Assembly (NCBI GenBank): GCA_025454835.1
Contig: JALONQ010000037.1
Location: 1-34,205, forward strand
Reading direction: 5' to 3'
Source: Bacteroidota bacterium
Lineage (GTDB): Bacteria > Bacteroidota > Ignavibacteria > UBA10030
DNA: 34,205 nucleotides
In this document: one piece after another, positions 1,056-23,732 of the stretch
Numbering within the stretch: the first letter of the stretch is position 1
Layout: each line of letters starts with the position of its first letter
The notes under the pieces: model-generated
What the model was told of the DNA's origin: nothing
The model's input: only the letters and a program-made list of their open reading frames with translations
Databases searched by the model: none
Translations under genes and position numbers: made by a program

Positions 1056-1060
1056 TTCCC

Positions 1061-1229: not shown

Positions 1230-1286
1230 GGGACACGTTGACGATCGATCCTGTCGCCTCCGCTCAGGGCAGGCCGCTCATCTGAC

Positions 1287-1377
1287 GTTGGCTTCGACTC
1301 ACGCTCAGCCTGACGTCGGCTTCGACTCACGCTCAGCCTGACGTCGGCTTCGACTCACGCTCAGCCTGACGTCGGCT
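1287..1377. repeat. 28-bp tandem repeat array, three units plus a partial unit
   Basis: Units at 1287-1314, 1315-1342 and 1343-1370 have the same sequence as the array at 1061-1200, followed by the first seven bases of a fourth unit. The stop codon of the neighbouring GIY-YIG gene lies only seven bases beyond the truncated unit. Related but diverged phrases of the type CTTCGACTCACGCTCAGGGT occur at 1757-1790 and around 23665-23692. Confidence 0.93.
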
Positions 1378-1383
1378 GAGGTT

Positions 1384-5123: not shown

Positions 5124-5247
5124 AGTAAGCAGTATGCAGGTACGGGCACGTTGTTGGCAGGTTGAGGTCGTGTGACAAGAACAATCTGATCTTTGTCGCT
5201 GGATCTCTGCCTGACCATTCCCGAAGGGACCTGCTTACTGACTACTT
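5124..5247. repeat. Family A palindromic repeat, copy 1
   Basis: The left arm AGTAAGCAGTATGCAGGTAC (5124-5143) matches the reverse complement of the right arm at about 16 of 20 positions. The right arm ends CCTGCTTACTGACTACTT near 5247. A core with AACAATCTGATC and TGTCGCTGGATCTC is shared with the other copies. The right arm overlaps the 3' end of the lipoprotein gene and contains its TAG stop (5242-5244). The other copies are at 8843-8964, 18484-18607 and 23540-23732, all in the same orientation. Confidence 0.88.
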
Positions 5248-5997
5248 TCTTCCTTCGACCCACTTTGGAACTTGCTCTGCACTACCTCTGCCCAAATACG
5301 CCCACGCTGCGGTGTTCACCGAATCCTTGGCGTAGATGCCGCTTCCTTCCGAGAACGGGTTCCATGAGAAGAGCCCATCGGACACCGCCAGGGGGTTTGC
5401 GGAGACCACACGGAACACTTCCGCCGAGTCGAGCGCGCGTCTCCAGATGGCGAGATCGTCGACACTGCCGGCGAATGCATCACGCACCGAGAGAACATGG
5501 CGTCCCATCGCCGTCGAGTTGACAGCGCCGGTGTTCAGGGCGAACGGTACGCCCGTGACGTTGCCGACCGGTCGTCCGTTGACGAACGCCGTGATGCGCG
5601 ACGACCCGACGTCGAACGTGAAGGCCACATGGGTCCATGTCCCCGCGCGTGCCGTGTCGAAGGCTGCCATGAATGTTCCGCTACCGACGCTTCCTCCGGC
5701 CGTCCAGCGCCCGTCGACGATCCCAATGAAGAATCCGCGGCCGTCGCTCGCATCTTCACGCGACAACAGAAGCCTGCCACGCGAGACGGAATCGGGTCGT
5801 ACCCATGCGGCCACGGTAACGGCCGGTACCGGCAGGACGCCGAGGGAGTTGAGACACGCGATGTCGTCGATACCGTCGAAGCGGAGCGCGAAGTCAGCAC
5901 GCTGCGCAACGGGCCCCGCTGGGTCGCTGCAGGAGAGAAGGAGAAGAAGCGGGATCGAGTGGCGAAGCATCCGGTCACGAACGATGTGGAGTCGCAT
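5242..5997 (-). CDS. Lipoprotein with LamG/concanavalin-like domain
   Basis: The likely start is the ATG at 5997 (MRLHIVRDRMLRH), which puts the lipobox LLSC about 22 residues in; ATG 5970 is an alternative. The frame is open further upstream to 6093 without signal-peptide character. After a short Ser/Pro linker comes a LamG-like jellyroll of about 200 residues (ALRFDGIDDIACLNS, then VTVAAWVRPDSV, then GTWTHVAFTFD, ITAFVNGRPVG, and FAGSVDDLAIWRRALDSAEV), the usual order of strands in Laminin_G_3. Such domains bind carbohydrate or mediate adhesion; no catalytic residues are expected. It is predicted to be tethered to the envelope by lipidation of the Cys. The TAG stop lies in the arm of a family A repeat, so the last few residues (EGRK) are partly repeat-derived. 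Confidence 0.85.
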   Translation of the reverse strand: MRLHIVRDRMLRHSIPLLLLLSCSDPAGPVAQRADFALRFDGIDDIACLNSLGVLPVPAVTVAAWVRPDSVSRGRLLLSREDASDGRGFFIGIVDGRWTAGGSVGSGTFMAAFDTARAGTWTHVAFTFDVGSSRITAFVNGRPVGNVTGVPFALNTGAVNSTAMGRHVLSVRDAFAGSVDDLAIWRRALDSAEVFRVVSANPLAVSDGLFSWNPFSEGSGIYAKDSVNTAAWAYLGRGSAEQVPKWVEGRK

Positions 5998-6268
5998 CGG
6001 GGCTTTCAAGTTGTTTGACGATCGGGCGCGGCTTGAGGGATGGTTCGGCGCCAGGTTCGACCAGCACGTGGCATTTCTCGGGAACTTCGGCAAGCAGGTT
6101 CAACCACCCCCGCCCCTCCGCCGGAGGCCCAACATAACTCACGCGAAGCGTGAAATAGATTTCTTCAAGGAGGGGATCATGAGAGGTCCAGAAGCGCGCA
6201 CAGATCCTGCATCTGACCACGGCTCACGGCTCTCTGACGTCTGGCCTCTGACCTCTGCTCCTGCCCTC
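5998..6268. other. Intergenic spacer with short hairpins, no supported gene
   Basis: Holds two small palindromes, CCTCCGCCGGAGG at 6116-6128 and CACGCGAAGCGTG around 6140-6152, and a CTCTGAC-rich stretch at 6225-6260. A minus-strand frame of 81 codons crosses most of it, but its translation looks like read-through of repeat DNA, with no signal peptide or known motif. I do not call it a gene. Confidence 0.5.
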
Positions 6269-7795
6269 CTACTGTCCCTCCAACCTCTCCACCTCCCGCT
6301 CCAGCCGCCCTCTCAGGTTCATTTCCCAATCGTAGTCTTCGTACCCCAGAGCTTGCTCGAACGTGCGCTTGGCGTCGTCTTTCTGCCCGAGCCTGGCTTG
6401 CGCGCGGCCGAGGACGAGCAGTGTGTGCGGGATGACCCAGATCTCGCGACGGGGGCGGAGTTGCAAAACCCCGGGAGCTTCGGCCAGCACGGTGCTGTCG
6501 TCGTGGCACTGGTAGGCCGTTTGCACCACGCCGTAGATCGCTTGCGACTGGCGCTCCGCGTCGCCCGACGCCAGATGTGCGGCAGAACGGTAGATCGCCA
6601 TGGCGTGGTCGCGGTTGCCGCGTTGTGCCTCGTTCGCCGCGATCACAAGGGCGATATCGACCGCGGTCATCGGGTTCGCCAGGAGTCGCTGTGCTCGTCG
6701 CCAGTACACTGACTCCCACGGGCGGTCGGAGTCGGTGACCGGCTTCATGCGCTTCCAGGTGCCCGCGGCCTTCGTCCGGTCGCCGAGCAGTTCGTACGAG
6801 ATGCCGAGCCGGTAATAGACGAAGTTGCCGACGTTCTCCTTGTTCTCGGACCGTTCGATGAATTGCTCCCAGTGGTATGCGGCCTTCGAAAATGTTCCCT
6901 GCGTGTAGTACGCAGACGCGAGAGTGCTGTGCGCAAACTCGGCGCCGATCTTGACCTGGGCCTTCTCATTGATGGCGATGGCCCGCTCGCCGACGGCGAT
7001 GGCGCTGTCGATCCGGTCACGGCGCAATTCCCAGTTCGCATACGTCACGAGGAACAGAGAATTCGTCGGATACCGGTCCATCACGCGGCGCAGGTAGAGC
7101 TCGGCCTCGTCGTAGCGCTCTTCGAAGAAGCAGAACTGGGCGTAGTAGAATGACGCTTCGGTGCGGGTGTAGATGCCTCCGTCGGCGGCGGCCTTCATCA
7201 TCGCCAGGCCCCCTTCGAGGTCGCCGGAAAAACCGATGAGGTTCAGAACCCACGAGAACGAGCGGGGGATCTTGGAAATGAGGTAGGAGAAGAGGCCGAA
7301 CCCGAGTTGAGCGTCGACCGAAAAGTTGGGTCCCGTCGCGGCCTCCCTGAGCAGGCTGTAGCCTTTTCGGCCGTCCCACACGCCGGCGAGCACACTCCCG
7401 TTGCGCTGGTAGGCGAGTCCACGGTAGCCGTACGCGCCGCCGAGAAAGAATTTGGCGGTGAGGTCTTTCGGATCGCGGTCGACGAGCGTCTCGGCCTTGT
7501 TGATCACGATGTCGGACAGCTCGAAGAAGCGTTTATAGGCCGCTTCATCCTTCGAGAGCTGATAGACGTAGAAATGGACCATGCTCTTGAAGAACCATCC
7601 GCGCGGGTCGTCGGGTGCGAGACGAATAACCTCGTCGAATGTACTCTCTGCTTCGTCGATCTTGAGATCGTACAGCCGGTCGATACCCTGGATGGTGAGG
7701 GTGTGGACGCGGGCCCAATCGACGTTCTGACCGTGAAGGATCGCCGGGGCGAAGAACAAGATGTACAGAAGATATTTCGAAGTGCGAATGGCCAA
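6269..7795 (-). CDS. Secreted tetratricopeptide-repeat protein
   Basis: About 508 residues from the preferred start. A TTG at 7795 gives MAIRTSKYLLYILFFAPAIL as a clean signal peptide ending near HGQ. An ATG at 7900 overlaps the PAP2 stop (ATGA) and would add 35 residues, but these come from a palindromic, intergenic-looking stretch and would make an implausibly long n-region. The mature part is alpha-helical with TPR-like units throughout, for example IDEAESTFDEVIRLAPDDPR, YDEAELYLRRVMDRYPTN, and a C-terminal unit with KDDAKRTFEQALGYEDYDWE. It is probably a periplasmic or surface scaffold. No enzymatic motif is visible. It follows the PAP2 gene closely and may be cotranscribed with it. Confidence 0.85.
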   Translation of the reverse strand: MAIRTSKYLLYILFFAPAILHGQNVDWARVHTLTIQGIDRLYDLKIDEAESTFDEVIRLAPDDPRGWFFKSMVHFYVYQLSKDEAAYKRFFELSDIVINKAETLVDRDPKDLTAKFFLGGAYGYRGLAYQRNGSVLAGVWDGRKGYSLLREAATGPNFSVDAQLGFGLFSYLISKIPRSFSWVLNLIGFSGDLEGGLAMMKAAADGGIYTRTEASFYYAQFCFFEERYDEAELYLRRVMDRYPTNSLFLVTYANWELRRDRIDSAIAVGERAIAINEKAQVKIGAEFAHSTLASAYYTQGTFSKAAYHWEQFIERSENKENVGNFVYYRLGISYELLGDRTKAAGTWKRMKPVTDSDRPWESVYWRRAQRLLANPMTAVDIALVIAANEAQRGNRDHAMAIYRSAAHLASGDAERQSQAIYGVVQTAYQCHDDSTVLAEAPGVLQLRPRREIWVIPHTLLVLGRAQARLGQKDDAKRTFEQALGYEDYDWEMNLRGRLEREVERLEGQ

Positions 7796-7900
7796 TTGCG
7801 AAATTGCAGACACGATAGTACGCAGAGACCGGAATTCAATGTGCTTCCTTTCCACCGCCTCCTTCCAATTCGCATTTGTCAATTCGCGATCCGCAATCAT
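7770..7900. repeat. Imperfect palindrome between the PAP2 and TPR genes
   Basis: CAATTCGCATTTGTCAATTC near 7866-7885 and GTGCGAATGGCCAATTGCG near 7786-7804 are approximately complementary, so the DNA from the PAP2 stop to the TPR signal peptide can fold back on itself. Its lower GC than either gene and its word pattern (AATTCGC) mark it as spacer-type DNA. This is the reason for doubting the ATG at 7900. Confidence 0.5.
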
Positions 7901-8820
7901 CCCTGACTCCCCTTAGCCCTCTCCCAGAAATCCTGGAACAGATCTCCGCTCCATACCGTGAACGCGAAGAACGCGACGCCGCCGAGGAGATCGACGACAT
8001 AGTGATAGCGCAGATAGACCGTGGCGACGATGAGGAATGTGGCGAGGACCGCGACGATCCACTTCGCCGGCAGATTGTAGCGGAAGGCCAGCAGAACGCA
8101 CAGCAGGGTCATCTGCGTGTGTCCGCTCGGAAAGACGTCGCGTTGTACGACCGACGCCGGGTCGGGATGCCCCTTCGGAAGCGACTCGCCCGCGTTGATG
8201 AAGTCGCGCATCCATTCTGTGTTGAGCAATCCGGGCAATTCCGTGTTGAGCGTGTGAAAGTCATGAAGCGTGAATCGCGGTCCGATGGCCGGCATGAGGA
8301 AGTAGCCGAGATACGACAGGTAGAACCCGAACACGATGAGGAACGCGGCATGGTCGAACTCGCGCACCGGATACCGGCGGTAGATCTGGACTCCGACGAT
8401 GATGAACAGGAGGTAGTAAGAAAAATACGCCGTCTGCAGGACCTCCGTCAGCACCGGATGGGCGAACTGGTACATCCAGACGGTCGGGTCGGTGCCGAAC
8501 ATCCAACGGTCGATCGCGATGAAGACCTGGTCGTAGTCCACTGGGTGGATCGGCCGGACCATAAAATAGAGCTGTTTGAAGACGCCGAGGACGATGGGAT
8601 AGCAGTACCATCGATGGACGTGACGCCAGACGCTGAGAGGCCGTCGCTCCGCCATCCACGCCAGACCGATGATGGCCGCCATGACGGCGAGGTCGACGAC
8701 GACCAGCAAGGCCCAGTGCTCCACGCGCGCCGAGAAGATGAGGCAGAGCGCCATCAGGAACGCGAGGAACCCGATGGAAACAACATCCAGAGGCGTCAGG
8801 AGAGTGCGGAGGCGATGCAT
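7897..8820 (-). CDS. PAP2-superfamily membrane phosphatase, Aur1/IPC-synthase-like
   Basis: A 307-residue polytopic membrane protein with about six to seven transmembrane segments. The catalytic signatures of the PAP2 superfamily are visible: FPSGHTQ (Ser232-Gly-His234) and YLRYHYVVDLLGG, in which His273 and Asp277 keep the H-x3-D spacing of motif C3. A GPRF motif at 180-183 precedes them. The spacing and the GPRF...SGH...YHYxxD pattern recall the PAP2_3/Aur1-like branch rather than undecaprenyl-diphosphate phosphatases, so it may act on a lipid head group (phosphatidate, or phosphoinositol/ceramide-type transfer). The substrate is not determined. The start is the ATG at 8820. Its stop is four bases from a possible TPR start. 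A family A repeat lies just upstream. Confidence 0.87.
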   Translation of the reverse strand: MHRLRTLLTPLDVVSIGFLAFLMALCLIFSARVEHWALLVVVDLAVMAAIIGLAWMAERRPLSVWRHVHRWYCYPIVLGVFKQLYFMVRPIHPVDYDQVFIAIDRWMFGTDPTVWMYQFAHPVLTEVLQTAYFSYYLLFIIVGVQIYRRYPVREFDHAAFLIVFGFYLSYLGYFLMPAIGPRFTLHDFHTLNTELPGLLNTEWMRDFINAGESLPKGHPDPASVVQRDVFPSGHTQMTLLCVLLAFRYNLPAKWIVAVLATFLIVATVYLRYHYVVDLLGGVAFFAFTVWSGDLFQDFWERAKGSQG

Positions 8821-8842
8821 GAGACAGCGAGAGATATCATGG

Positions 8843-8964
8843 GCAGTATGCAGTAAGCAGGTACATTCGGGACCAGTCAGGAAGATGTCCCATGAAAACG
8901 ATCACACAATCATGTCATTGGACTTCAGCCTGCCCATCGCCTGAGGGTGCCTGCTTACTGCCTA
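8843..8964. repeat. Family A palindromic repeat, copy 2
   Basis: The left arm GCAGTATGCAGTAAGCAGGT begins at 8843 and the right arm ends GCCTGCTTACTGCCTAG near 8964; the arms are complementary at about 16 of 18 positions in the inner part. The core has CACAATCATGTCATTGGACT, matching the orientation of the other copies. It lies between the PAP2 start and the next palindrome, which begins where this one ends. Confidence 0.85.
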
Positions 8965-9073
8965 GAAGCGGTCTCAAAAACCCAGAATTCACAAAAACAA
9001 GCGTTTCACGCAGCGACCGCAGCGGAAGCAACGATCGCAGCGGTAAGAAACGAGCACCTTGAGACTGCTTCTA
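8963..9073. repeat. Palindromic element downstream of mgtE (family E)
   Basis: TAGAAGCGGTCTCAA at 8963-8977 and TTGAGACTGCTTCTA at 9059-9073 form terminal inverted repeats of 15 bp with one mismatch. The interior (9010-9046) contains short GCAGCGACCGCAGCGG-type words. It starts nine bases after the mgtE stop codon (in the direction of transcription) and abuts family A copy 2, so two unrelated palindromes are packed head to tail. Confidence 0.88.
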
Positions 9074-9082
9074 CTCAGGTTT

Positions 9083-10486
9083 TCACAGCCATTGCAGCAT
9101 CGCCGTTGCCAGCGACAGGAAGACCGTGATGCCGATGATGTCCTGGAACGCCGTCTCGAACGGACCGGCGGTAATGGCCGGGTCGAAGCCGAGTGAATGC
9201 GAGATCATGGGTGTCGCAGTGCCGACCATGCCCGAAAAATTGATGGCGATGAACATGGACGTGCCGACCACCGCGCCGAACAACGGGGTCCCGTGCCAGA
9301 ATCCTGCGATGAGGCCGAGCACGAGGCCGCACGCCGCGCCGATGATGAGCGTCACAATGAGCTGCCGCCGCAGCGGGAGCCACCACCGTTTCGTGTCGAC
9401 CTGGCCGGTGGCGATGCCGCGCACGATCATGGCCGCCGACTGCAGGCCTGTATTGCCCGAGATGGCCGAGATGATCGGCATGAAGGAAGCCAGGAGGATC
9501 ACTTGCGAGAGGGTCTTGTCGAAGACGTGCACGACGACGCCGGCGATCAGCTGCAGCAGAAGCGTCATCATCACCCACGGCAGGCGCATAAGGGCCATGC
9601 GGGTCGGAGAGCGCTGGCCGACGGAGACGCTGTCGGTACCGGCCATGCGGGCCACATCCTCATCGTGTTCCTCTTTCAAGACGTCGACGACGTCGTCGAT
9701 GGTGATGCGTCCGAGCAGTTTGCCGGCGGTGTCGGTGACGGGGAGCGAGACGATGTCGTACTTCGAAAAGATGCGGGCCACTTCTTCCTGGTCGACGTCG
9801 GGCGTCACGCTCCTATAGTCGGCGTTCATGATCTTGTACACGCGTTTGTTGGGCGCGTGCAGGAGCAGGTCGGGAAGCTGGACGGCCCCGATGAAGAGCC
9901 CGCTCTCGTCGACGACGTAGACGTTGTAAACGTGCATTTTCTCCTTCGCCAGCTTGCGGACGACGCGGATGGCCGCCTTGACCGTGTCGGTCTTCGACAC
10001 GACGGCCATTTCCTTGGCCATCAGACCGCCGGCCGTGTTCTCGTCGTAGCGGAGGAGTTCCTCGACCTGTGACGAGTCCGCAACGTTCATCGTTTCGAGG
10101 ACACTTTCGGCCTTCTCGTCGGACAGCTCGCCGACGACATCGGCCGCATCATCCGAATCCATCTCGCCGACGATCTCGGTCAGGCGGTCCTGGGCGAGAT
10201 TGGCCAGGATGTGCTCGCGCGTCGGCTCGTCCAGGTCGAGCACGGCCGCCGACGCCACCTCGTTCGTCAGCATCCCGAAGACGTAGAGGGCATCCGCCAT
10301 TTCGAGGCGGTTGAGGATGTGCGCGATGTCGCCCGGGACGAGGTCCTGGATGATGTTCAGGACGAGGTAGTCGGACCGCGACTTGACGAGATCTTCCAGG
10401 TCGCGCAAGAGCTCATCGTCGACCTCCAGCGTCTCTTTCTGGGGGACCGTCGTCTCGTCGATGGGGGTGTCGGTATCCTGTGCCAT
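9083..10486 (-). CDS. mgtE: Magnesium transporter/channel MgtE
   Basis: This is the cytoplasm-gated Mg2+ channel that imports Mg2+ across the inner membrane. All parts of the 467-residue family architecture are present: an N domain of helical repeats (about 25-150), a pair of CBS domains (about 150-275, starting at TAGGLM), a plug-helix region and five transmembrane helices from about 300 to 467. The family motif SGNTGLQSA (343-351) and the pore-lining FDPA near residue 434, with the conserved aspartate, are visible. The ATG at 10486 (MAQDTDTPIDE) is the only sensible start. The gene is flanked by palindromic elements on both sides and does not seem to be in an operon. Confidence 0.96.
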   Translation of the reverse strand: MAQDTDTPIDETTVPQKETLEVDDELLRDLEDLVKSRSDYLVLNIIQDLVPGDIAHILNRLEMADALYVFGMLTNEVASAAVLDLDEPTREHILANLAQDRLTEIVGEMDSDDAADVVGELSDEKAESVLETMNVADSSQVEELLRYDENTAGGLMAKEMAVVSKTDTVKAAIRVVRKLAKEKMHVYNVYVVDESGLFIGAVQLPDLLLHAPNKRVYKIMNADYRSVTPDVDQEEVARIFSKYDIVSLPVTDTAGKLLGRITIDDVVDVLKEEHDEDVARMAGTDSVSVGQRSPTRMALMRLPWVMMTLLLQLIAGVVVHVFDKTLSQVILLASFMPIISAISGNTGLQSAAMIVRGIATGQVDTKRWWLPLRRQLIVTLIIGAACGLVLGLIAGFWHGTPLFGAVVGTSMFIAINFSGMVGTATPMISHSLGFDPAITAGPFETAFQDIIGITVFLSLATAMLQWL

Positions 10487-10527
10487 GTTGAGGTCCGTGA
10501 TTGCGATGAAATCGTCAGCCCGGAATA

Positions 10528-10622
10528 TTCAACCGCGAATGCACGCCAATTGACGCGAATGGTTTGGAAGGTCCATTCTCATGTGATCATTCGCGTACAT
10601 TCGCGTTCATTGGCGGTTCGAA
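10528..10622. repeat. Palindromic element at the rsmA 3' end (family B)
   Basis: The left arm begins TTCAACCGCGAATGCACGCC (10528) and the right arm is ATTCGCGTTCATTGGCGGTT with CGAA after it, ending at 10622. The arms are complementary over about 30 bases with several mismatches. The right arm overlaps the end of rsmA and contains its TGA stop (10607-10609), so the last five codons of rsmA (DSNRQ) are repeat sequence. Confidence 0.88.
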
Positions 10623-11494
10623 TCCTTTCCTGCTTGGAAAGTACTCTTTCTTGCCTCGATATCCTTCGTCAGCCCCACGAATTCCTCCGGCGTCAGCTCC
10701 TCCGGCCGCCGGTCGGCGACGGGGCCGAGTTCGGCAATGATCTCCTTCGGAATGCCGGCATATCCAAGGCCGTTCCGCATGGTCTTCCGCCGCTTGCCGA
10801 ACGTCCCGCGGACGACCGTTCGAAAGAGCACATCGTCGATCTCGGGAAGATCGTGCCGCAGGTCAAGCCGGACCACCGCCGAATCGACGTCGGGGCGGGG
10901 GTAGAAGCAGTTGCGAGACACGCCGAACAACCGCCGGGGAACGGCGTAATACCGGGCGAAGACGGACAGGATGCCGTACTCCTTCGTCCTCGGCTTGGCC
11001 ACCAGGCGGGCCGCCACTTCGGCCTGGACCATGAGCGTCGCGTCGCTGATCAAGTCGCGTTGATCGAGCACCCAGAACAGAATGTCGCTCGTGATGTAGT
11101 AGGGGATGTTGCCGACGACGCGTAGCAACGGGCCCCTTCCAGAACTCATTCCATGAGCTTTTCGCGCGGTGCCCGCGGAGAAGGCGGCGAACGCGACGTG
11201 TTCGTTGTGGAAGGTGCCTGTCAACAGATCTCCCGCACTCACCTTCAGAATGTCTCCCTCGACGATCGTCACCCGACCGGCGAACTCTTCTTGCAGTCGC
11301 TCTACGGCCCGCCGATCCAACTCCACCGCCGTGAGCCGGCACGCATCCGCGAGAAGCCGCGTCAGTGCGCCAGGTCCTGGTCCGATCTCGACGACGTGAT
11401 CGTCAAGCTTCAGCTCCAACGAAGCCACGATCTTCCGCAGGATGTTGTCGTCCTGGAGAAAGTTCTGGCCGAGATGTTTGCGAGGAGAGATCAA
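10607..11494 (-). CDS. rsmA: 16S rRNA (adenine1518-N6/adenine1519-N6)-dimethyltransferase
   Basis: RsmA/KsgA dimethylates two adjacent adenosines in the 3'-terminal hairpin of 16S rRNA during late small-subunit assembly. The family pattern is clear: LGQNFLQD (residues 8-15), SAM motif I VVEIGPGPGALT (34-45), VELD (57-60), the GD of motif III near 80 and the catalytic NIPYYIT (129-135), then the C-terminal FGKRRKTMRNGL. The 295-residue length is longer than usual because of about 28-30 extra residues (92-121) just before NIPYYIT. The extra DNA, 11131-11218, has inverted-repeat ends. The stop codon lies in another palindrome. The gene is divergent from the polysaccharide locus. Confidence 0.95.
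   Translation of the reverse strand: MISPRKHLGQNFLQDDNILRKIVASLELKLDDHVVEIGPGPGALTRLLADACRLTAVELDRRAVERLQEEFAGRVTIVEGDILKVSAGDLLTGTFHNEHVAFAAFSAGTARKAHGMSSGRGPLLRVVGNIPYYITSDILFWVLDQRDLISDATLMVQAEVAARLVAKPRTKEYGILSVFARYYAVPRRLFGVSRNCFYPRPDVDSAVVRLDLRHDLPEIDDVLFRTVVRGTFGKRRKTMRNGLGYAGIPKEIIAELGPVADRRPEELTPEEFVGLTKDIEARKSTFQAGKDSNRQ
11131..11218. repeat. In-frame palindromic insert within rsmA
   Basis: GGCCCCTTCCAGAA at 11131-11144 and TTGTGGAAGGTGCC at 11205-11218 are inverted repeats matching at 11 of 14 positions. A second imperfect palindrome lies inside (GCTTTTCGCGCGG against CCGCGGAGAAGGC). The segment coincides with about 28-30 residues that have no counterpart between the DILK region and the catalytic NIPYYIT of ordinary RsmA proteins, and it keeps the frame open. 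The translated insert (TGTFHNEHVAFAAFSAG and on) has no recognisable motif. Confidence 0.65.
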
Positions 11495-11802
11495 AGGGTG
11501 TAGAGAGGCGTGAGTATGGAGTATGGAGACTGAAGCGCGTTCGGACGTCGGGAATCTGAAGGGAGCTGTGGTGGTCAGTGATCAAAGAAGGGATTTCCAA
11601 TGTGTCCGCTTTCCCATTGACCACCCGCCTGCCTCACTGTCGTTCGTTCGGCGGGCAGGTTCACTATTCACCATTCACCCTCACTGATGTCTCGTCCTTC
11701 GCTGCCTTCTCGGCACGGAATACACCCAATTTACATACGAAAACCCTCATTCCGCACGCTCTGCGTATTGCTTCTCCCTCAAAATCACCGCATTTTCGAC
11801 AT
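11495..11802. promoter_or_regulatory. Divergent spacer between rsmA and the polysaccharide locus
   Basis: About 308 bases that must hold the promoters of rsmA (minus) and of the long plus-strand locus. It contains an imperfect inverted pair (GTGGTCAGTGATC near 11571 and CCCATTGACCAC near 11613-11624) and a hairpin CCTGCC...GGGCAGG near 11629-11660. The 60 bases before the GT2 start are AT-richer than the surroundings. No -33/-7 Bacteroidota or sigma70 consensus is convincing. An open frame runs from 11578 into GT2, but its translation has no family resemblance. Confidence 0.4.
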
Positions 11803-12759: not shown

Positions 12760-12778
12760 TCTACTCGACGAAGAGCAG

Positions 12779-12971
12779 ATCGCGCAGTGGCGCAGAGAAC
12801 GCAGAGGTCTCAGAGCCAGAGGCCCAATACAACTGCCGCGAGGCGGCAACCTCCTTTTCTGATTGAAGCGCCCTTATGCCATCGCAAAGAGGTTTAGATT
12901 ATCGCTTCGCGATAGAGTCGTGGGCCTTCGGCTCTCTGCGAACTCTGCGCTCGTTGCGGCTCTGCGTGCAC
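12779..12971. repeat. Long palindromic element after the GT2 gene (family C)
   Basis: The left arm (12781-12825) contains CGCAGAGAACGCAGAGGTCT and CAGAGCCAGAGGCCCA. The right arm (12919-12971) contains GTGGGCCTTCGGCTCTCTGC and CTCTGCGCTCGTTGCGGCTC. They are imperfectly complementary over about 45 bases. Between them are two perfect small hairpins, TGCCGC-gag-GCGGCA near 12833-12847 and TATCGC-ttc-GCGATA at 12900-12914. The element begins about 20 bases after the GT2 stop and ends about 20 bases before the GT9 start. Confidence 0.85.
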
Positions 12972-12990
12972 ATCTTCTACCCTTAGCCTC

Positions 12991-14091: not shown

Positions 14092-14095
14092 CACC

Positions 14096-15444: not shown

Positions 15445-16998
15445 ATGGCCCGCAGCACAAAACAAAAATCTGCTCCTTCCACCTCGCTGATGCCGTACGC
15501 CGAGTCGTTGGTCGAGCACCGGTACGCTCCCGTGGCGTTGGCGGCGCTGTACTTTGTCGTGATGGTCTGGATCGCGCTGAAGTACCACGTCGTCGGCGAC
15601 TATGGGGACATCCTCGAGGGAAAGCTGCCGATCGAGGATTTCCACGGGCCGCTCTACCCGCTCGTGCTCGCGGCGGTGAGTCTCGTAACGAGCGACCTGT
15701 TCCACGCCGGCGTCGTGCTCTCCGTGCTATCAGCGGCGGTCGTGTTGTGGGGCGTGTATGAGACGGTCCGCCGGCTGGTCCGCGCTGATGTGGCGGCGAT
15801 GGCGGTGCTGTTCGTGGCGGTGAATCCGACCTTCGTGCAGTACTCGTACACGGCCGGCACGGACATGTTCTTCTTTGCGCTCGTCATGACGGCCACATGG
15901 GCGTTGCTGAAGGACGCAGAACGCCGCTCGAGCGCGCTCGTGGTCTCGGCGCTGCTGTTCGGGCTGGCGTACCTGACGCGGTACAACGGCATCTTCGCGT
16001 TGGCGGGCGTTCCGGCGGCCATCCTGCTGGCCGATCCCCACGGTCACCCGTGGAAGGAACGCGCTCGGACGGCGGGTCTGTTCGCCGGCGTCTTTCTCCT
16101 GACGATCGCGCCGTGGGGCATCTACGCGCTGGTCGAGAAGGGGAACTTCTTCTACAATCGCAACTACCTCAACATCGCGTACGAGATGTTCGGACGCGGC
16201 AAGGTGGGGTGGGACGCGTACTGGTACGGGGCGGCGAGCCAGTATCAGTCGTTGACGCAGGTGATCCTCGCCGATCCCGGGGCGTTCATCGCGACGGTCG
16301 GGGGGAACATCGCCGACCATCTCGTGGGCGACCTCGGCAAGCTCGTCGGCTGGCCGACCGGCATCCTGGCGGTCATCGGAACGGCGTTGCTGTTCCGCGA
16401 GCGTCCGGACCGCCGACTGCTGACGTTGTTGCTCATCGGGGCGTCGTTCTTCGCCCTGCTGCTGCTCGTCTTCTACGGCGAGCGTTTCTCGCTGTATCTG
16501 TTGCCCCTCTACGTCGTGCTGGCGTTGCGCACCCTCACCTGGCCCGCGTTGGCGGCGTGGCGCCTCTGGGGGACCGTCCAGATCGGCGGCGTGGCGGCGG
16601 TCGTGCTCGTGCTCTGGCAGTTCGCCGAGAGCAGGTCGTTCAACCGCGAGCAGATCGACTCCGGTCCGGCGGAGGTGGTCCAGGTGGGCCGTTGGTTCGA
16701 GGCGAACCAGCCGTCCCCGAAGCCCGGAACGATCGTGGTGGCCCGCAAGCCCCACATCGCGTACTATCTCGGTATGACGCTGGAGATGTTCCCTCCGGTG
16801 ACGACGCAGGAGGAACTGTTTGACGCCCTGCGCCGCGTGAACGCCTCGTATCTGTACTACAGTCCAATGGAAGCCGGTCTGCGCCCGCAGTTCCAGTACT
16901 TGCTGGATCCCGCCAGGGCCCCGTCTGGCTTGCGGCCCCTCGTATCCACCGCCGTGCCGCCGGCGGTCCTCTACCGTGTGGAGTTGAACCAACCATGA
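15445..16998 (+). CDS. Membrane glycosyltransferase of the PMT/ArnT (GT39-like) superfamily
   Basis: 517 residues with about ten transmembrane helices in the first 400 and a soluble C-terminal domain. The first periplasmic loop carries acidic residues (VVGDYGDILEGKLPIEDFHG), the place where the family has its catalytic aspartate, and LYPLVLAAV starts the next helix. Proteins of this type take a sugar from a polyprenyl-phosphate carrier on the outer face of the inner membrane and transfer it to lipid, protein or glycan. The GT2 at 11803 could make its donor. The start is the ATG at 15445, without Shine-Dalgarno. The stop overlaps the following ATG (ATGA), so the two genes are translationally coupled. 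The exact acceptor cannot be told from sequence. Confidence 0.85.
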   Translation: MARSTKQKSAPSTSLMPYAESLVEHRYAPVALAALYFVVMVWIALKYHVVGDYGDILEGKLPIEDFHGPLYPLVLAAVSLVTSDLFHAGVVLSVLSAAVVLWGVYETVRRLVRADVAAMAVLFVAVNPTFVQYSYTAGTDMFFFALVMTATWALLKDAERRSSALVVSALLFGLAYLTRYNGIFALAGVPAAILLADPHGHPWKERARTAGLFAGVFLLTIAPWGIYALVEKGNFFYNRNYLNIAYEMFGRGKVGWDAYWYGAASQYQSLTQVILADPGAFIATVGGNIADHLVGDLGKLVGWPTGILAVIGTALLFRERPDRRLLTLLLIGASFFALLLLVFYGERFSLYLLPLYVVLALRTLTWPALAAWRLWGTVQIGGVAAVVLVLWQFAESRSFNREQIDSGPAEVVQVGRWFEANQPSPKPGTIVVARKPHIAYYLGMTLEMFPPVTTQEELFDALRRVNASYLYYSPMEAGLRPQFQYLLDPARAPSGLRPLVSTAVPPAVLYRVELNQP

Positions 16999-18488
16999 AT
17001 ATCGTCATCGTCAGTACCGCGTATCCGTTCCGCGGGGGCATTGCGCACTACGTCGCGCTCCTGTATCGGCGCCTCGCGCAGCGGAACAACGTCAAGGTCG
17101 TCACGTTCACCCGTCAGTATCCGTCGTTCCTGTTCCCCGGCACGACGCAGGAAGAGACGGGCGGAAGCGAACTGCTCCGCATCCCGGCGGAGCGTCTCGT
17201 CGATTCCGTCAATCCGTTCACCTGGATGTCGGCCGCGAAGAAGATCGCGGCGACGAAGCCTGACGTCCTCGTCTTCAAATACTGGCTTCCGTTCTTCGGT
17301 CCGTGCTTCGGGTACATCGCCCGCAAGGTGAAGAAGCTGACAGGCGGCCATACCCGCACGATCCTCATCGCGGACAATATCATTCCGCACGAACGGCGGG
17401 TGTTCGACAAAGTGTTCACGAACTACGCCATGAAGTCGGCCGACGCCGTCATCGTCCAGTCGGCCTCCGTCGAGCGTGAGCTGAAGCACCACTATCCGAA
17501 CAAGCCGTACCGAATGGTGCCGCACCCGATCTACGAGATCTTCGGCAACGCCATCGGCAAACGCGAGGCTCGCGACCGCATCAAGGTCCGCGACGCCAGG
17601 ATCATGCTGTTCTTCGGCTACATCCGGCCGTACAAAGGGCTCTCGACGCTGTTGAAGGCCATGCCCGAGATCGCCAAGCGCACGCGCGCGAAGCTGCTCG
17701 TGGTGGGGGAATGCTACGGCGACGAGCAGGAGTACCGTAAGCAGATCAAGGACCTGAAGCTGGAATCGTCCGTCGACTTCCGGGCCGAGTATGTCTCGCC
17801 CGAGGACGTCAATCTCTACTTCTCCGCCGCCGACCTGATCGTTCTACCGTATTCGTCGGCGACGCAGAGCGGCATCGTGCAGATCGCGTATCAATTCGAC
17901 AAGCCGGTCGTGGCCACGAACGTCGGCGGTCTCGCCGAAGTGGTGGTCGACGGCAAGACGGGCTACATCGTGAAGCCCAACGACCCGAAGGAACTGGCGG
18001 ATGCCGTTAACCGCTATTTCGAACAGCGAAAGGAAGGGGACTTCGTTCGCAACATCCACGACGAGAAGCGGAAGTACTCGTGGGACCACCTGACGAAAGC
18101 CATCGTGGAATTGGGCAGGCAGCCGGAGGGGGGGAAAGGTGGAAGTGAAAAAGGAGAAGGCAAGAGCGGGAAGGAGGAAGGCCGGAGGGGAGGGCGGTTC
18201 AAAGGGGGTCGCGGCAACGAAGGCGGGCGATGGAAACAGCGCCTGCCGCACGAGCACGAACACGGGGGATTGCCGCGGAGCCAGACACGGCCGCACGAGC
18301 CGAAGCACACACCGCAAGGTCCTCAGCCGCCGCAAGCGCAGGGACCTCGGCCGGGTGCAGTCCCGCCGGGTCCGGGTCAGCCTCGTCCGGAAGGGGGAGC
18401 CAAGCGTGGCCGACGTCGAGGGTGGCGGGGTGGACGGGGGAGGAGAGGCGGAAAGCCGCAGGGCCCTGGAGGAGGCCAAGGTGAGTAA
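16995..18488 (+). CDS. Family 4 glycosyltransferase with Arg/Gly-rich C-terminal extension
   Basis: 497 residues, of which the first 376 or so form a complete GT-B enzyme. The N-terminal domain begins MNIVIVSTAYPFRGGIAHYV. The donor domain has MLFFGYIRPYKGLSTLLKAM (204-223), LLVVGECYG, LIVLPYSSATQSGIVQIAY (281-299; equivalent of the E-x7-E region) and VVATNVGGLAEVV. Residues 377-497 are abnormal for the family: Gly/Arg/Lys/Glu-rich, then His/Pro/Gln-rich, then RGRRRGWRGGRGRRGGK, probably disordered and strongly basic. The stop TAA (18486-18488) lies inside the left arm of a family A repeat. The gene overlaps the upstream membrane transferase by four bases. It is a cytoplasmic sugar transferase; the role of the tail is unknown. 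Confidence 0.88.
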   Translation: MNIVIVSTAYPFRGGIAHYVALLYRRLAQRNNVKVVTFTRQYPSFLFPGTTQEETGGSELLRIPAERLVDSVNPFTWMSAAKKIAATKPDVLVFKYWLPFFGPCFGYIARKVKKLTGGHTRTILIADNIIPHERRVFDKVFTNYAMKSADAVIVQSASVERELKHHYPNKPYRMVPHPIYEIFGNAIGKREARDRIKVRDARIMLFFGYIRPYKGLSTLLKAMPEIAKRTRAKLLVVGECYGDEQEYRKQIKDLKLESSVDFRAEYVSPEDVNLYFSAADLIVLPYSSATQSGIVQIAYQFDKPVVATNVGGLAEVVVDGKTGYIVKPNDPKELADAVNRYFEQRKEGDFVRNIHDEKRKYSWDHLTKAIVELGRQPEGGKGGSEKGEGKSGKEEGRRGGRFKGGRGNEGGRWKQRLPHEHEHGGLPRSQTRPHEPKHTPQGPQPPQAQGPRPGAVPPGPGQPRPEGGAKRGRRRGWRGGRGRRGGKPQGPGGGQGE

Positions 18489-18607
18489 GCACTAAGCAGG
18501 TTCCTGCAGGCCCGGTCAGGCGGACGCCGATGGGCACAGATCAATCTGTTCTTGTCATCGGATATCGACCTGCTCGTGCCCTGACTGTACCTGCATACTG
18601 CCTACTT
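18484..18607. repeat. Family A palindromic repeat, copy 3
   Basis: The left arm AGTAAGCACTAAGCAGGTTC (18484-18503) and the right arm GTACCTGCATACTGCCTACT are complementary at about 16 of 20 positions. The core has CAGATCAATCTGTTCTTGTC and ATCGGATATCGACC, closest to copy 4. The left arm carries the stop codon of the preceding GT4. Confidence 0.9.
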
Positions 18608-18692
18608 CTCTTGATCTAGCTCCACGCTTCAGTCTGTCGACTGACGACGGACGACTGTCGACTCTCATTAGACCTTCGCTTCCTTTTCACCC
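18608..18692. other. Short spacer with GTCGAC repeat words
   Basis: Contains two GTCGAC sites (18636-18641 and 18657-18662) separated by GACGAC words, similar in flavour to 4470-4495. It could form a weak stem. No promoter or Shine-Dalgarno is evident before the next gene. Confidence 0.4.
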
Positions 18693-19502
18693 ATGCACTA
18701 CGACCCTATCAAATTCTCCATCGGCAACGTCGTCCGCAGGTCGGTTCTCCTGCGCCGGCTCTTCTATACGGTGCTCGGATTGTTGTTCCTCCGCGAATGG
18801 CATGTCAAGCGGGCGGTCCGGCGTTTGCTGGGGAACCGGAGCGTCGCGCAGGACGTCTATGATGCCGGCAGCGGGTTCGGACAGTACTCGTACTACATCG
18901 CCCGGCGCTATCCGAACGTGAAGCTGTTGTCCGTGGACGTGAAAGAAGAACAGATCGACGACTGCCGGAAGTTTTTCGCGGAGCGGGGGATCACAACGTG
19001 CACGTTCGCCGTCGAAGACCTCACGAAGGTCGCGCATCAGGACCGCTTCGACATCGTGTTGTCCGTCGACGTGATGGAACACATCGCGGACGACGTCACA
19101 GTGTTCGCGAACTTCCACCGTGCTCTGCGCCCCGGCGGGCGGCTGTTCATCAACACGCCGTCGGACCTGGGCGGCTCGGATGCGCACAGTCCGGACGACG
19201 CCTCGTTCATCGAAGAGCATGCGCGGAACGGCTACAACGTGCAGGAGATGCGGCAGAAGCTGACGTCGGTCGGGTTCGAAGTGGAGAGCATCCGCTACAC
19301 CTACGGCCCCTTCGGCAGCGCCGCGTGGCGCGCTGGCATCAAATGGCCGATGCTGATGTTGAACGTGTCGAAGCTCTTCTTCGTGATCCTGCCGTTCTAT
19401 TATGTGGTCGCGCTCCCGTTCGTGCTCCCGCTGATGTGGCTGGATGTGGCGGTGGAGAACCGGCGCGGGACAGGGCTGAATGTGGTGGCAAAGAAGAACT
19501 GA
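18693..19502 (+). CDS. SAM-dependent methyltransferase with C-terminal membrane segments
   Basis: 269 residues. After about 50 basic and hydrophobic residues comes a class I methyltransferase core: motif I VYDAGSGFGQYS (55-66), LLSVDVKEEQIDDC, and IVLSVDVMEHIADD with LRPGGRLFINTPS. Two hydrophobic stretches near the end (about 225-255, LFFVILPFYYVVALPFVLPL) suggest association with the inner membrane, as expected for an enzyme acting on a lipid-linked glycan. The ATG at 18693 follows a family A repeat. The stop TGA is followed at once by another palindromic element. No Shine-Dalgarno. Confidence 0.9.
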   Translation: MHYDPIKFSIGNVVRRSVLLRRLFYTVLGLLFLREWHVKRAVRRLLGNRSVAQDVYDAGSGFGQYSYYIARRYPNVKLLSVDVKEEQIDDCRKFFAERGITTCTFAVEDLTKVAHQDRFDIVLSVDVMEHIADDVTVFANFHRALRPGGRLFINTPSDLGGSDAHSPDDASFIEEHARNGYNVQEMRQKLTSVGFEVESIRYTYGPFGSAAWRAGIKWPMLMLNVSKLFFVILPFYYVVALPFVLPLMWLDVAVENRRGTGLNVVAKKN

Positions 19503-19503
19503 A

Positions 19504-19628
19504 CGAGGCGTTGAGGATTGTCGATTTTCGATCGTCGATTGTCGAATATCGGAAAGCAACTGCCGATCGTTGATCGAACTGGATAATCGACATTCGTCAA
19601 TCGCCACTCGACAATTCCCCTCGATCCT
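19504..19628. repeat. Palindromic element between methyltransferase and GT4 (family F)
   Basis: GAGGATTGTCGATTTTCGAT near 19512-19535 and the complementary AATTCCCCTCGATCCTC near 19613-19628 bound an AT-richer stretch full of TCGA and ATCG words (GTCGATTGTCGAATATCGG, AATCGACATTCGTCAATCG). The complementarity is imperfect, but the ends (GAGGAT/ATCCTC) match. It starts just after the stop of the methyltransferase and ends just before the TTG start of the next gene. Confidence 0.7.
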
Positions 19629-19631
19629 CCC

Positions 19632-20981: not shown

Positions 20982-21016
20982 CGGGCGCCGCTGATCACCG
21001 ACCGGTCTTCCATCCC

Positions 21017-23551
21017 ATGAGCACGCCCCAGAAGCCGCGCGCCTCCCGCAAGCCTTCGCGGGAGGACCGACCCCTTGTGCCCGAACGCTACCGCCACGTC
21101 GTGGCGATCGCCGGGCTCGTCCTTGCCATCTTCATCTTCTTCTTTCCCGTCATCTTCGGCGGTAAGACCTTCGTCGGCCCCGATTCCATCGCCTCGCACA
21201 GCTTCGATACGCTGCTGATGGACGCGAAGGAGCAGGGCATCTTCCCGCTCTGGAACCCGTACATCTTCGGCGGCATGCCGGCGTACGGAAGTCTCTCCGT
21301 GACGGGCGACCGCTGGTACGACATGACCGGCTGGCTGTGGAACAAGCTGGCAGGGACGTTCGGGACGCTCTTCGGCGGCGGCCAGGTCACGTGGGTCGTC
21401 TTCTACTACATCCTGTTCGCTGCGGGCATGTATCTGCTGGCGTTCTCCAAGGTCCGCAACTCGCTCGCGGCGTTCGTGGCGGCGTTCGGCGCGACCTTCT
21501 CGATGTTCATCATCATCTGGATCATGGTGTCGCACAACACCAAGATCGCGACGATGGCGCCGTTCCCGCTCCTGCTGTATGTGGCCGACCGCCTGCGCGA
21601 ACGGTTCCGCTGGCTCTGGGCGCTCCTGGCCGTGGTGTTGCTGCACTTCATGTTCATGCCGAGCCACGTGCAAATGATCTTCTACGCCGCGCTGGCGTTC
21701 GGCGGTTACTATCTCATGCTGGCGTGGCTGGCCATCCGACACGGCGAGCCATGGAAAGGGGTCGTTCGGTCGGCGGGCGTATTGGCGATCGCGGCGGCGT
21801 TGGCGTTCGCGATGGATTCGGACCGCTATCTTTCCGTCCTCGAGTACAATCCTTCCTCGATCCGCGGGTCGGCACCGCTCATCCCGCCGCCGGGCAAGGC
21901 GGAAGAAAAGACGCAGGCGGGCGGGCTCGACTACGACTACGCCACGCAGTGGTCGCTGGCTCCGGGCGAGATGATGACGTTCTTGGTGCCGACGTGGTAT
22001 GGGTTCGGCCATCTGGAATACGACGGCCCCCTCACGCGCGGTCCGATGCGCTTCAACGGCTATTGGGGTCCGCAGCCGTTCACCGATGCGGCGCAGTACA
22101 TGGGCATCGTGGTCCTCGTGCTGGCGATCGGAGGGCTCATTCGGAAGCGGCGCGACCCGTTCGTGCTCTACCTGGGGGGGATGATCGTCTTCTCGCTGCT
22201 CGTTGCGTTCGGGAAGGAATTCCCGCTCCTGTACGACGCGATGTTCTCGTACGTGCCGATGTTCAACAAGTTCCGCGTGCCGTCGATGATCCTGGTGCTC
22301 GTCCAGATCTTCGTGCCGCTGCTGGCGGCGTACGGCGTGGCGACGTGGATGGGAGACCGGGACCATACGTGGAGCGACAAGGTCGAGCAGAGGTGGAAGC
22401 GCGCGACGCTCGGTCTCGGCGCCGCGGCGGTCTTGGCTTTCATCGGCCGGGGGGCGGTCGAGACGGTCTACCAGAGTTTCTTCCCGCTGTCGGAGGTCGG
22501 GCCAAGACTCGGCCGCCAGTTCGGCCAGGTGCAGATGCAGGTCGTGGCGGAATTCTACCAGAAGGTCGTCGACTACGTCGTGGTCGATATCATTCTGGCC
22601 CTGGTCTTCTGCGCGGCGCTCGCCGCGGCGGTCTGGTTCTACGGTCGCCGGGCGATCGGGGTGAACGCGTTCGCGGCGATCCTCATCGTGGCGGCCGGCG
22701 CCGACCTGTGGCGTATCAACATGCGCGTCATGGACCCGCAGCCGCAGCGGAACCACGAGGCGATCTTCGCGGCCCCCGACTACGTGCGATTCATGCAGCA
22801 GGACAGTTCGTTGTTCCGGACGCTGACGTTCCAGCAGGGGCAGCTGCCGTATGACAACACGCTCGCGTACTGGCGCATTCAGAGTGCGTACGGCTACCAG
22901 GGCGCGAAGATGCGTTCGTACCAAGACATGGTCGAGGTGGCCGGGCTCTACAATCCGCTCGTCTGGCAGATGATGAACGTGAAGTACATCATCTCCGACC
23001 AGTACGACAGCACAGCGTTGTTCGAGCAAGTGTTCGACGGCCAGACGTTCGACGTCTTCCGCTTCCGCGGAGCGCTGCCGAGGGCATTCTTCGTGAACCG
23101 GTTCGAAGTGGCGTCGGCGGAACAGACGCTCAACCAGATCGCGAACGGGGCGTTCGATCCACGCGACCTGATGTATGTTCTGAACGATCCCGGCGCACGC
23201 GTCGATCCGCCGGCAGCAGGGGCGAGCGTCGAGGTGACGGAATTCGGTATCCAGCATCTGAAATTGAAAGCAACGGCCACCGGCAACAACCTGCTCTTCC
23301 TGAGCGAGACGTACTACCAACCGGGTTGGAAGGCGACGATCGACGGGAAGGAAGCGGAGATCATCCGGGCGAACTATCTGTTCCGCGGGCTCGTCGTGCC
23401 TCCGGGCGAGCACACGATCGAGATGCGGTTCGAGCCTTCCGGCTTTGTGTTGGGCAAGAACCTGAGCCTGGCGGTGAACCTGCTGGTGATCCTCGGCTTC
23501 GGCGTGGTGGGGTTCTTCGAGTGGCGCGGGAGAGCAGCAAGTAAGCAGTAG
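21017..23551 (+). CDS. YfhO-family multi-pass membrane protein
   Basis: 844 residues from the ATG at 21017 (MSTPQKPRASRKP). A GTG at 20978 that overlaps the GT4 stop would add 13 residues and cannot be excluded. A basic N-terminus is followed by about eleven to thirteen transmembrane helices, with FVGPDSIASHSFDTLL and FPLWNPYIFGGMPAYG in the first periplasmic loop; this acidic loop and the W-N-P-Y-x-F-G-G-M-P motif are characteristic of YfhO (PF09586). The last 200 residues form a periplasmic beta-rich domain ending in a final helix. In other bacteria YfhO-like proteins are linked to glycosylation of lipoteichoic acid and other polymers. Here it could be a polyprenyl-phosphate-sugar-dependent transferase or take part in polymer assembly. 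The stop TAG lies in a family A repeat. Confidence 0.9.
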   Translation: MSTPQKPRASRKPSREDRPLVPERYRHVVAIAGLVLAIFIFFFPVIFGGKTFVGPDSIASHSFDTLLMDAKEQGIFPLWNPYIFGGMPAYGSLSVTGDRWYDMTGWLWNKLAGTFGTLFGGGQVTWVVFYYILFAAGMYLLAFSKVRNSLAAFVAAFGATFSMFIIIWIMVSHNTKIATMAPFPLLLYVADRLRERFRWLWALLAVVLLHFMFMPSHVQMIFYAALAFGGYYLMLAWLAIRHGEPWKGVVRSAGVLAIAAALAFAMDSDRYLSVLEYNPSSIRGSAPLIPPPGKAEEKTQAGGLDYDYATQWSLAPGEMMTFLVPTWYGFGHLEYDGPLTRGPMRFNGYWGPQPFTDAAQYMGIVVLVLAIGGLIRKRRDPFVLYLGGMIVFSLLVAFGKEFPLLYDAMFSYVPMFNKFRVPSMILVLVQIFVPLLAAYGVATWMGDRDHTWSDKVEQRWKRATLGLGAAAVLAFIGRGAVETVYQSFFPLSEVGPRLGRQFGQVQMQVVAEFYQKVVDYVVVDIILALVFCAALAAAVWFYGRRAIGVNAFAAILIVAAGADLWRINMRVMDPQPQRNHEAIFAAPDYVRFMQQDSSLFRTLTFQQGQLPYDNTLAYWRIQSAYGYQGAKMRSYQDMVEVAGLYNPLVWQMMNVKYIISDQYDSTALFEQVFDGQTFDVFRFRGALPRAFFVNRFEVASAEQTLNQIANGAFDPRDLMYVLNDPGARVDPPAAGASVEVTEFGIQHLKLKATATGNNLLFLSETYYQPGWKATIDGKEAEIIRANYLFRGLVVPPGEHTIEMRFEPSGFVLGKNLSLAVNLLVILGFGVVGFFEWRGRAASKQ

Positions 23552-23732
23552 GCAGGTACCATTCGGGTCCGATCAGGCGGATATCCAAGAAAACAGATCA
23601 TCTGTTCTTGTCATCGGATCTCCACCTGCACACAGCCTGTGAGTTCCTGCTTGCCCCTCGACTCCCCTTCGACTCGCTTCGCTCGCTCAGGGTCGCTCGG
23701 GGCCCCGAGCCGCGCCGAGGGGCTGCCTACTT
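23540..23732. repeat. Family A palindromic repeat, copy 4 (interrupted)
   Basis: The left arm AGTAAGCAGTAGGCAGGTAC (23540-23559) contains the TAG stop of the YfhO-like gene. The core (CAGATCATCTGTTCTTGTCA) matches copy 3. The right arm is split: TTCCTGCTT ends at 23652 and CTGCCTACTT resumes at 23723, with about 70 bp of a different palindrome in between. Joined together, the halves restore about 16 of 20 matches with the left arm. Confidence 0.85.
23653..23723. repeat. Palindrome nested in family A copy 4
   Basis: GCCCCTCG at 23653-23660 and CGAGGGGC at 23716-23723 are perfect 8-bp terminal inverted repeats. The interior has CTTCGACTCGCTTCGCTCGC and AGGGTCGCTCGGGGCCCCGA, related to the TTCGACTCACGCTCAGG words of the 28-bp arrays at the left end of the window. 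It interrupts the right arm of the family A element, so it arrived later. Confidence 0.8.

Follow-up and report, generated by a model that had tools for sequence, protein, structure and literature searches.

Small palindromic elements of enterobacteria, Neisseria, pneumococci, Caulobacter/Brucella and Rickettsia are reviewed in the available part of PMC2229807. The family described here belongs to a Bacteroidota bacterium (Ignavibacteria; UBA10030) and was recognized in a stretch of 34,205 nucleotides, contig JALONQ010000037.1 of GenBank assembly GCA_025454835.1. This stretch, hereafter called the window, is the complete contig C18 of a genome of 3.2 Mb in 47 contigs, and holds four copies of a palindrome of about 124 bp. 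The family is best explained, with a probability of about 0.67, as a species-specific set of non-autonomous mobile DNA palindromes, similar in behaviour to the elements YPAL and ERIC and tolerated at gene ends partly through stop codons in its arms. The reviewed elements are thus joined by a family of an uncultured bacterium that is markedly associated with gene ends and whose tolerance there has a simple explanation in these stops.

By analogy, YPAL (RU-2) of Yersinia is the closest known system in behaviour. YPAL is palindromic, about 168 bp long, intergenic, not A+T-rich and without terminal TA; it is mobile by comparison of filled and empty sites, is reported to be co-expressed with upstream genes, and has targets that span or adjoin dyad symmetry, with target duplications of 3-26 bp (PMC2229807, available part). 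The present family is likewise a multi-copy intergenic palindrome of 100-200 bp with empty orthologous sites, compared here at the gene level. It differs in sequence and in phylum and in that no target duplication was detected; its ends are the best conserved part, whereas the inverted repeats of YPAL are internal according to the accessible text.

ERIC (IRU, RU-1) is a 127-bp intergenic repeat with inverted ends (PMC2229807, PMC2759123), a terminal TA and a target duplication (PMC2229807), as given in the available parts of these papers. The present copies resemble it in size, intergenic location and inverted ends but have neither the terminal TA nor the target duplication, and a check for a relation in sequence, made via Rfam on the window, gave no match. 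REPs are 20-40 bp long and carry a tag at one end (accessible text of PMC3733652). Like GTAG REPs and BIMEs, the elements studied here are palindromic and extragenic with GTAR at the outer ends; unlike them, each is a single palindrome of about 124 bp with GTAR at both ends, and the Y1 genes of this genome lie beside other palindromes. The TAACTGA repeats of Beggiatoaceae are intergenic direct repeats found mostly just before starts, some of them overlapping upstream stops (PMC4679880), and heptanucleotide elements occur in the intergenic DNA of Geobacter metallireducens (PMC2700814), both according to the portions available. Here too the arms start with 7-nt units and the intergenic DNA has a 7-nt period, but in contrast to the Beggiatoaceae repeats the heptads form inverted palindrome arms behind stop codons. 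The Rickettsia palindromic elements (RPE) are 105-146 bp long (PMC2229807, available part). They share with the present family the palindromic form and a similar size. RPE change proteins and are known for in-frame insertion inside genes, whereas here the arms carry stops in two frames and the copies lie at gene ends.

In the open-access papers searched, with few subscription papers covered, neither the 124-bp family nor palindromes with inverted repeat arms at the 3' ends of genes were found described. The papers compared, each through its accessible part, were PMC2229807, PMC2700814, PMC2267715, PMC3733652 and PMC4679880.

Copies and architecture of the palindrome

The window copies, with the genes and codons that adjoin them, are:

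5124-5247, minus strand (better family match): copy 1, 124 bp, between two minus-strand genes
5242-5244, minus strand: TAG stop inside the arm of copy 1, ending the Laminin_G_3/ConA-like lectin-domain gene 5242-5997
8843-8965, plus strand: copy 2, between the minus-strand genes MgtE and PAP2
9083-10486, minus strand: MgtE gene, stop 117 nt from copy 2
7897-8820, minus strand: PAP2 gene, start 24 nt from copy 2
18484-18607, plus strand: copy 3, 124 bp
18486-18488, plus strand: TAA stop inside the left arm of copy 3, ending the glycosyltransferase gene 16995-18488
23540-23732, plus strand: copy 4, enlarged by another repeat in the right arm
23549-23551, plus strand: TAG stop inside the left arm of copy 4, ending the YfhO-like gene 21017-23551
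23655-23723: secondary insert of 69 nt, a CTTCGACTCGCTTCGCTCGCTCAGGG-type repeat that interrupts copy 4 in its right arm

An earlier reading of the window, made from the letters alone (the sequence-only reading), had reported four copies with shared arms; both were found at the coordinates it gave, and a covariance model joins the copies into one family, with best matches of E 4e-29. It had also placed all copies in one orientation. Copy 1 scored 105.9 bits on the minus strand and 74.7 on the plus strand, which contradicts that view, and strand has little meaning for these copies because the element is palindromic. Copy 4 is longer because the 69-nt repeat was inserted in its right arm.

Alignment of 14 genome copies gave a single palindrome, nearly end to end and about 124 bp long, made up of two inverted halves of about 60 nt each. 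In this alignment the consensus of the left half is AGTARGCAGTARGCAGGTAC..TCAGG....CAGGCGGA.GTC...CAAAGATCA; the right half mirrors it and terminates in GTACCTGCYTACTGCCTACTT. The arms begin with two 7-nt units and have the consensus AGTARGC-AGTARGC-AGGTAC, in which TAR stands at arm positions 3 and 10, read inward, and stops occur in two of the three frames with either base at R. GTAR (GTAG or GTAA) is present at both outer ends of the element. At two loci (L111, C44:74475; L119, C3:107745) a second palindromic insert, CCTGCCTGCCGA..CGGCAGGCAGG, lies in the arms, so that palindromes are nested in palindromes.

The covariance model used throughout (R2) was built from the 14 copies with a hand-written structure and replaced a first model (R1) that had a poor consensus fold. 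Over the whole genome it gave 46 matches, which are 23 places each matched on both strands, with 150 of 605 first-look candidates scored; one half copy was found in addition on contig C40. A search with the arm, allowing up to three mismatches, gave 38 matches against 7 for the reversed control, all 38 of them inside the 23 copies and the half copy. In 400 kb of the same genome outside the known copies (a sample picked once the copies were known, and containing none of them) the model gave nothing better than E 2.3. The several hundred copies per genome extrapolated by the sequence-only reading are replaced by 23 copies and one half copy in 3.2 Mb; the window is a clustered excess, with 4 of the 23 copies in 34 kb (P about 1e-4).

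Position at gene ends

A gene 3' end adjoins every one of the 23 copies, 20 of which lie in tandem gaps and 3 in convergent gaps, with none in a divergent gap. The stop codon is inside the arm or at most 33 nt away in 21 of 23 copies; it is farther off for window copy 2, at 117 nt, and for the second copy of a tandem pair, at 213 nt. In nine copies the stop is supplied inside the arm, either 5-6 or 12-13 nt in; each of the nine uses one of the two arm stops, and no internal stop was seen farther in, where the open frame would place it (chance 0.026). Retraining of the gene calls without these loci gave the same counts, and a stricter gene threshold left 19 of 23 copies near or inside and 7 of 23 inside. 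The proportion of three copies in four with a stop in the arm, given earlier for the window, held there at the codons listed above; it did not hold for the genome, where it is 9 of 23, or 7 of 23 under the stricter threshold.

As a null, 310 gaps in the 400 kb of the same genome were used, weighted by bases or by gaps. Sites within 33 nt of a stop make up 20-26% of intergenic bases and 49-53% of random gap positions, and the excess of copies near stops had a P of 5e-11 (bases) or 9e-5 (gaps). Divergent gaps account for 12-19% of bases and 7-9% of gap draws, and by bases the absence of divergent copies had a P of 0.008. Of 18 tandem copies, 16 lay closer to the stop than to the start (P 0.0013); this set omits the 3 convergent copies, the second member of the tandem pair and one copy with the downstream start called inside the element. 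The idea that the element sits at gene 3' ends, where it can cap a reading frame, is supported by these counts, and the tabulated distances show that in their own genome the copies are not random with respect to stop codons. Orientation relative to the genes was even (9 of 20 tandem copies in the same direction, 11 opposite), several copies scoring nearly alike on both strands. Other repeat families had too few copies in the 400-kb sample to serve as controls for the 3'-end bias.

The 15 nt that flank the element, read toward it, are purine-rich on both sides (69-70%; positions for 21 of 23 copies). At one locus (L110, G000:C3:168998-169120) the reading frame of the minus-strand gene downstream continues across the entire element, and the arm would code for part of a hydrophobic N-terminal stretch, LYLLTAYFLLASSLLAQ; read by eye, the element may supply a piece of a signal peptide.

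Orthologous sites and distribution

Orthologous sites were compared in a congener (G001) that is about 65-75% identical in DNA. The element was absent at all nine sites that were readable, and the family model had no match in the G001 loci that hold them. The empty sites are those of the YfhO, glycosyltransferase and copy 1 genes; the 3' ends of the genes for quinolinate phosphoribosyltransferase (nadC), a succinyl-CoA ligase-type protein and an NAD-dependent epimerase; and the places behind pyruvate:ferredoxin oxidoreductase, a DUF58 gene and a histidine kinase. For the copy 1 and epimerase sites one flank only was comparable. G001 keeps the neighbour genes of three window copies; it has an extra gene at the YfhO site, and the lectin-domain gene is missing at the copy 1 site. 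Clearest of all is the histidine kinase/response regulator pair, which overlaps by 4 nt in G001 and is here separated by a 214-nt gap that holds the element and a nested repeat. The YfhO-like gene of G001 ends in GCGGCG-TAA; here the arm comes directly after the aligned codons GCAGCA and contributes the stop, at its position 10. Empty orthologous sites, which the sequence-only reading had proposed to look for, were accordingly found at nine of nine places; neither a random scatter with respect to stop codons nor occupation of the same sites in relatives was observed.

Among 97 other genomes of the order, with 36 candidates scored per genome, matches were found in three (G023, G029 and G001). 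The match in G023 (L159) is on contig C183, of which 2,220 bases are 99.95% identical to contig C3 of the present genome; G023 is 55% complete and of another genus, and C183 is probably a misplaced or misbinned contig. G029 has one copy, at a place where the present genome has other sequence, and G001 has a weak look-alike with a terminator-like core. Across 395 genomes of the phylum, the present one included, arms with up to two mismatches were found in 38, the 37 others having 1-4 matches each. These matches are no more than chance, because about 52 other genomes match the reversed control; only the present genome is rich in arms (16 forward, 16 reverse). At the class level the model matched 5 of 391 genomes, the present one included, with the best nine candidates per genome scored, which makes this a weak negative. 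The exact arm pattern had no match in viral contigs, and copy 3 used as a query had none in plasmids and phages. The family is nearly private to its own species.

Origin and spread of the copies

Mean pairwise identity of the copies is 0.634. The left and right halves of the same copy are 0.600 identical and those of different copies 0.617; left halves compared among themselves give 0.611 and right halves 0.661. Compensatory change was not detected (83.6% of cells pair, against a shuffle mean of 83.9%), and changes on both sides of the helix were equally rare in the alignment and in the shuffles. What was inherited was a palindrome, which then decayed independently in each copy, with no selected RNA structure. 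Conservation is highest at the ends: the outer 20 nt reach about 0.86 on the left side and 0.75-0.86 on the right side, compared with about 0.6 for the middle 40 nt. A second conserved block (0.83) lies inside the right half.

In the explanation that we favour, a mobile family of non-autonomous palindromes, a near-perfect palindromic master would have been copied to many sites. This would probably have happened once the congener had split off, at a time remote enough for the copies to drift to 63% mean pairwise identity. Movement would have been as DNA, by an enzyme that may be missing or unrecognised in the assembly. The surviving copies would be those in gaps behind gene 3' ends, mostly short co-directional gaps and none of them divergent in the own genome. 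A copy that landed on or just before a native stop would end the protein within a few codons and not add a long tail, and such insertions would be nearly harmless because each arm has stops in two of the three frames. Most of the gene-end bias would then come from selection on insertions.

Several results weigh against this explanation. The gene calls rest on a codon model that was fitted to this same genome, and not on a standard annotation, and sites in G001 were compared at the gene level and, except at the YfhO stop, not base by base. The absence of divergent copies had a P of 0.12 when gaps were weighted. With random placement of each of the 18 copies in its own tandem gap and a 20-nt guard before the start, 23.8 nt from the stop was expected on average; the copies averaged 11.8 nt, and the closeness to stops was marginal (P 0.03). 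The one copy of G029 is in a gap called divergent, about 92 nt from a start, and is the sole exception to the 3'-end rule that was met. Conservation is uneven along the element, a pattern that pure decay of one master does not explain; the ends may have had a part in movement, or there may have been several source copies with different interiors. The target duplications that the sequence-only reading had suggested looking for were in no convincing excess over mispaired flanks: none was convincing at fixed lengths of 2-11 nt with offsets (about 1,100 combinations), the best cases being a 2-nt match in 5 of 23 copies (0.95 expected) and a 3-nt match in 3 of 23 (0.23 expected), and at variable length the mean longest match was 4.5 against 4.1, with a maximum of 4.7 among mispaired sets. 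This test is weakened by the age of the copies. No arms were found around a longer unit or elsewhere in the genome, all arm matches being in known elements, and no transposase with matching ends was found in the genome. Inverted repeats were not in excess in the flanks, and the empty sites are too diverged for dyad symmetry of the target to be read there. Much of the closeness to stops may be due to short tandem gaps together with selection against harm to start signals, and a target preference of the element itself for gene ends is possible.

Among other explanations, a REP-type product of a Y1/RAYT (HUH) transposase that acts on single-stranded hairpins, with the outer GTAR as the tag, is unlikely. 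Two Y1_Tnp genes above the family cut-off are present in the genome and the arm ends read GTAG or GTAA; the missing target duplication would fit single-strand transposition, and the gene could sit in another strain or be lost from the assembly. The RAYT/Y1 partner envisaged by the sequence-only reading did not emerge, however: by eye, both Y1 genes have other palindromes beside them. On inspection of the consensus the halves form no hairpins of their own and the tag would be inside the paired stem, and the element is three to six times the size of a REP. At one locus (L192, G000:C30, near 5231-5413) a Y1 transposase gene adjoins a GTAG-tagged GC-rich palindrome, which by eye looks like a REP/RAYT pair unrelated to the 124-bp family.

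A classical miniature inverted-repeat transposable element (MITE), derived from a DDE insertion sequence and with the arms as terminal inverted repeats, is rather improbable. Such an origin would fit terminal inverted repeats of about 20 nt on dispersed copies of some 124 bp. Against it stand the lack of a convincing target duplication of fixed or variable length, an inverted repeat that spans the whole element, and the lack of arms around a longer unit, although the partner could be in an unsampled strain.

It is very doubtful that the copies are a 3'-end RNA element (a bidirectional terminator, an attenuator or an mRNA-stabilising hairpin) kept by selection, which the sequence-only reading had offered as its alternative. 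The location at 3' ends would suit such a role, as would the DNA folds of three window copies, of which two surpassed every one of 200 shuffles in stability (z -4.2 and -3.9) and the third was less extreme (z -2.2); other long palindromes are similarly placed, some with a terminator-like core hairpin by eye. This alternative is opposed by the lack of compensation, the two halves of a copy matching each other no better than they match those of other copies, by the lack of any orientation bias relative to genes and by absence at the orthologous sites. None of the 14 terminator-like sites of the region scan falls in the four window copies, and no Rfam family matched in the window.

Integron attC sites (core-site consensus GTTRRRY/RYYYAAC), such as the Vibrio repeats of about 125 bp, are also palindromes of this size directly after genes, sometimes with the gene's stop inside, and were rejected, the core-site pair being present in 0 of 23 copies and the copies being dispersed and not in cassette arrays.

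Other long palindromes in the two congeneric genomes

Three palindromes of other types lie in the window:

10527-10623: palindrome of another family with GCGAATG-type arms, overlapping a gene 3' end; the type is also present in G001
12783-12966: palindrome with CGCAGAG-type repeat arms, 23 nt past a stop
19501-19626: palindrome at a gene stop, its arms made of GATTGTC heptads; the orthologous G001 gap has a palindrome of other sequence, with CACGAAG arms

A palindrome scan of the window and the 400 kb gave 20 palindromes outside genes (15 in tandem gaps, 5 convergent, 0 divergent), with a stop at most 33 nt away or overlapped in 15 of 20; many of them, not all, have differing arms of 7-9-nt repeats. 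The scan is insensitive and lists copy 2 alone of the four window copies. In 372 kb of G001 the corresponding numbers were 22 outside genes (20 tandem, 2 convergent, 0 divergent) and a stop near or overlapped in 13 of 22; the recurrent arm types there include GCGAATG, CACGAAG, CGCAAAG and GAATAGA. Ordinary terminators are also palindromes at gene ends.

Intergenic DNA of the present genome has a 7-nt period (lag 7 gives 0.294, most other lags about 0.267), as has that of G001 (0.287 against about 0.261). In loci of named relatives, of which 31 of 55 had enough intergenic DNA (0.8-2.5 kb each), the period was clear in 1 of 31 (L043) and is not shown to be general. Two loci, L213 (G117:C55:8815-9007) and L214 (G150:C76:34119-34163), hold inverted heptad arrays (GCAGTAG/GCAGTAT/GCAGGAA) around unrelated cores; both loci belong to genomes from other families of the class and, by our own gene calls, lie in tandem gaps beside a stop.

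In 41 orthologous gaps a palindrome scored in both species in 3, in the present genome only in 2, in G001 only in 3 and in neither in 33 (P 0.017), a rough table in that the score misses family copies such as those at window 18484, L109, L119 and L124. One of the three doubly occupied gaps may be a shared terminator; in the nadC gap and in the gap after window 19502 the palindromes of the two species are unlike in sequence.

This wider pattern is the most interesting lead, not proven. Tentatively, the 124-bp family could be one member of an undescribed class of palindromes with inverted arrays of 7-9-nt units as arms around variable cores (AGTARGC in the present family; GCGAATG, CACGAAG, CGCAAAG, GAATAGA and others elsewhere). 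Members of such a class would lie in tandem gaps at gene 3' ends and replace one another with time, which would leave unrelated palindromes at orthologous gene ends of the two congeneric species; one mechanism that reads the architecture or the gene end, and not the sequence, would place them, and the arm stops would make a reusable slot. Were the wider pattern to hold, the emergence of new palindromes, their choice of gene ends and the turnover of bacterial gene 3' ends would become a question open to testing.

Neighbouring genes and other repeats of the window

In Pfam the glycosyltransferase ended by copy 3 is PF13692, the YfhO-like protein is PF09586 and the gene ended by copy 1 has the Laminin_G_3/ConA-like lectin domain. 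The best named matches of the glycosyltransferase were Ignavibacteria proteins of at most 63% identity.

Two arrays of a 28-nt unit, CTTCGACTCACGCTCAGCCTGACGTCGG, are present at window 1028-1405, and the right arm of copy 4 has a repeat of similar style inserted in it. The two ends of the contig (window 33997-34198 and 1-363) carry direct repeats, one of 101 nt (tandem) and one of 145 nt, and these end repeats may be the cause of the assembly breaks.

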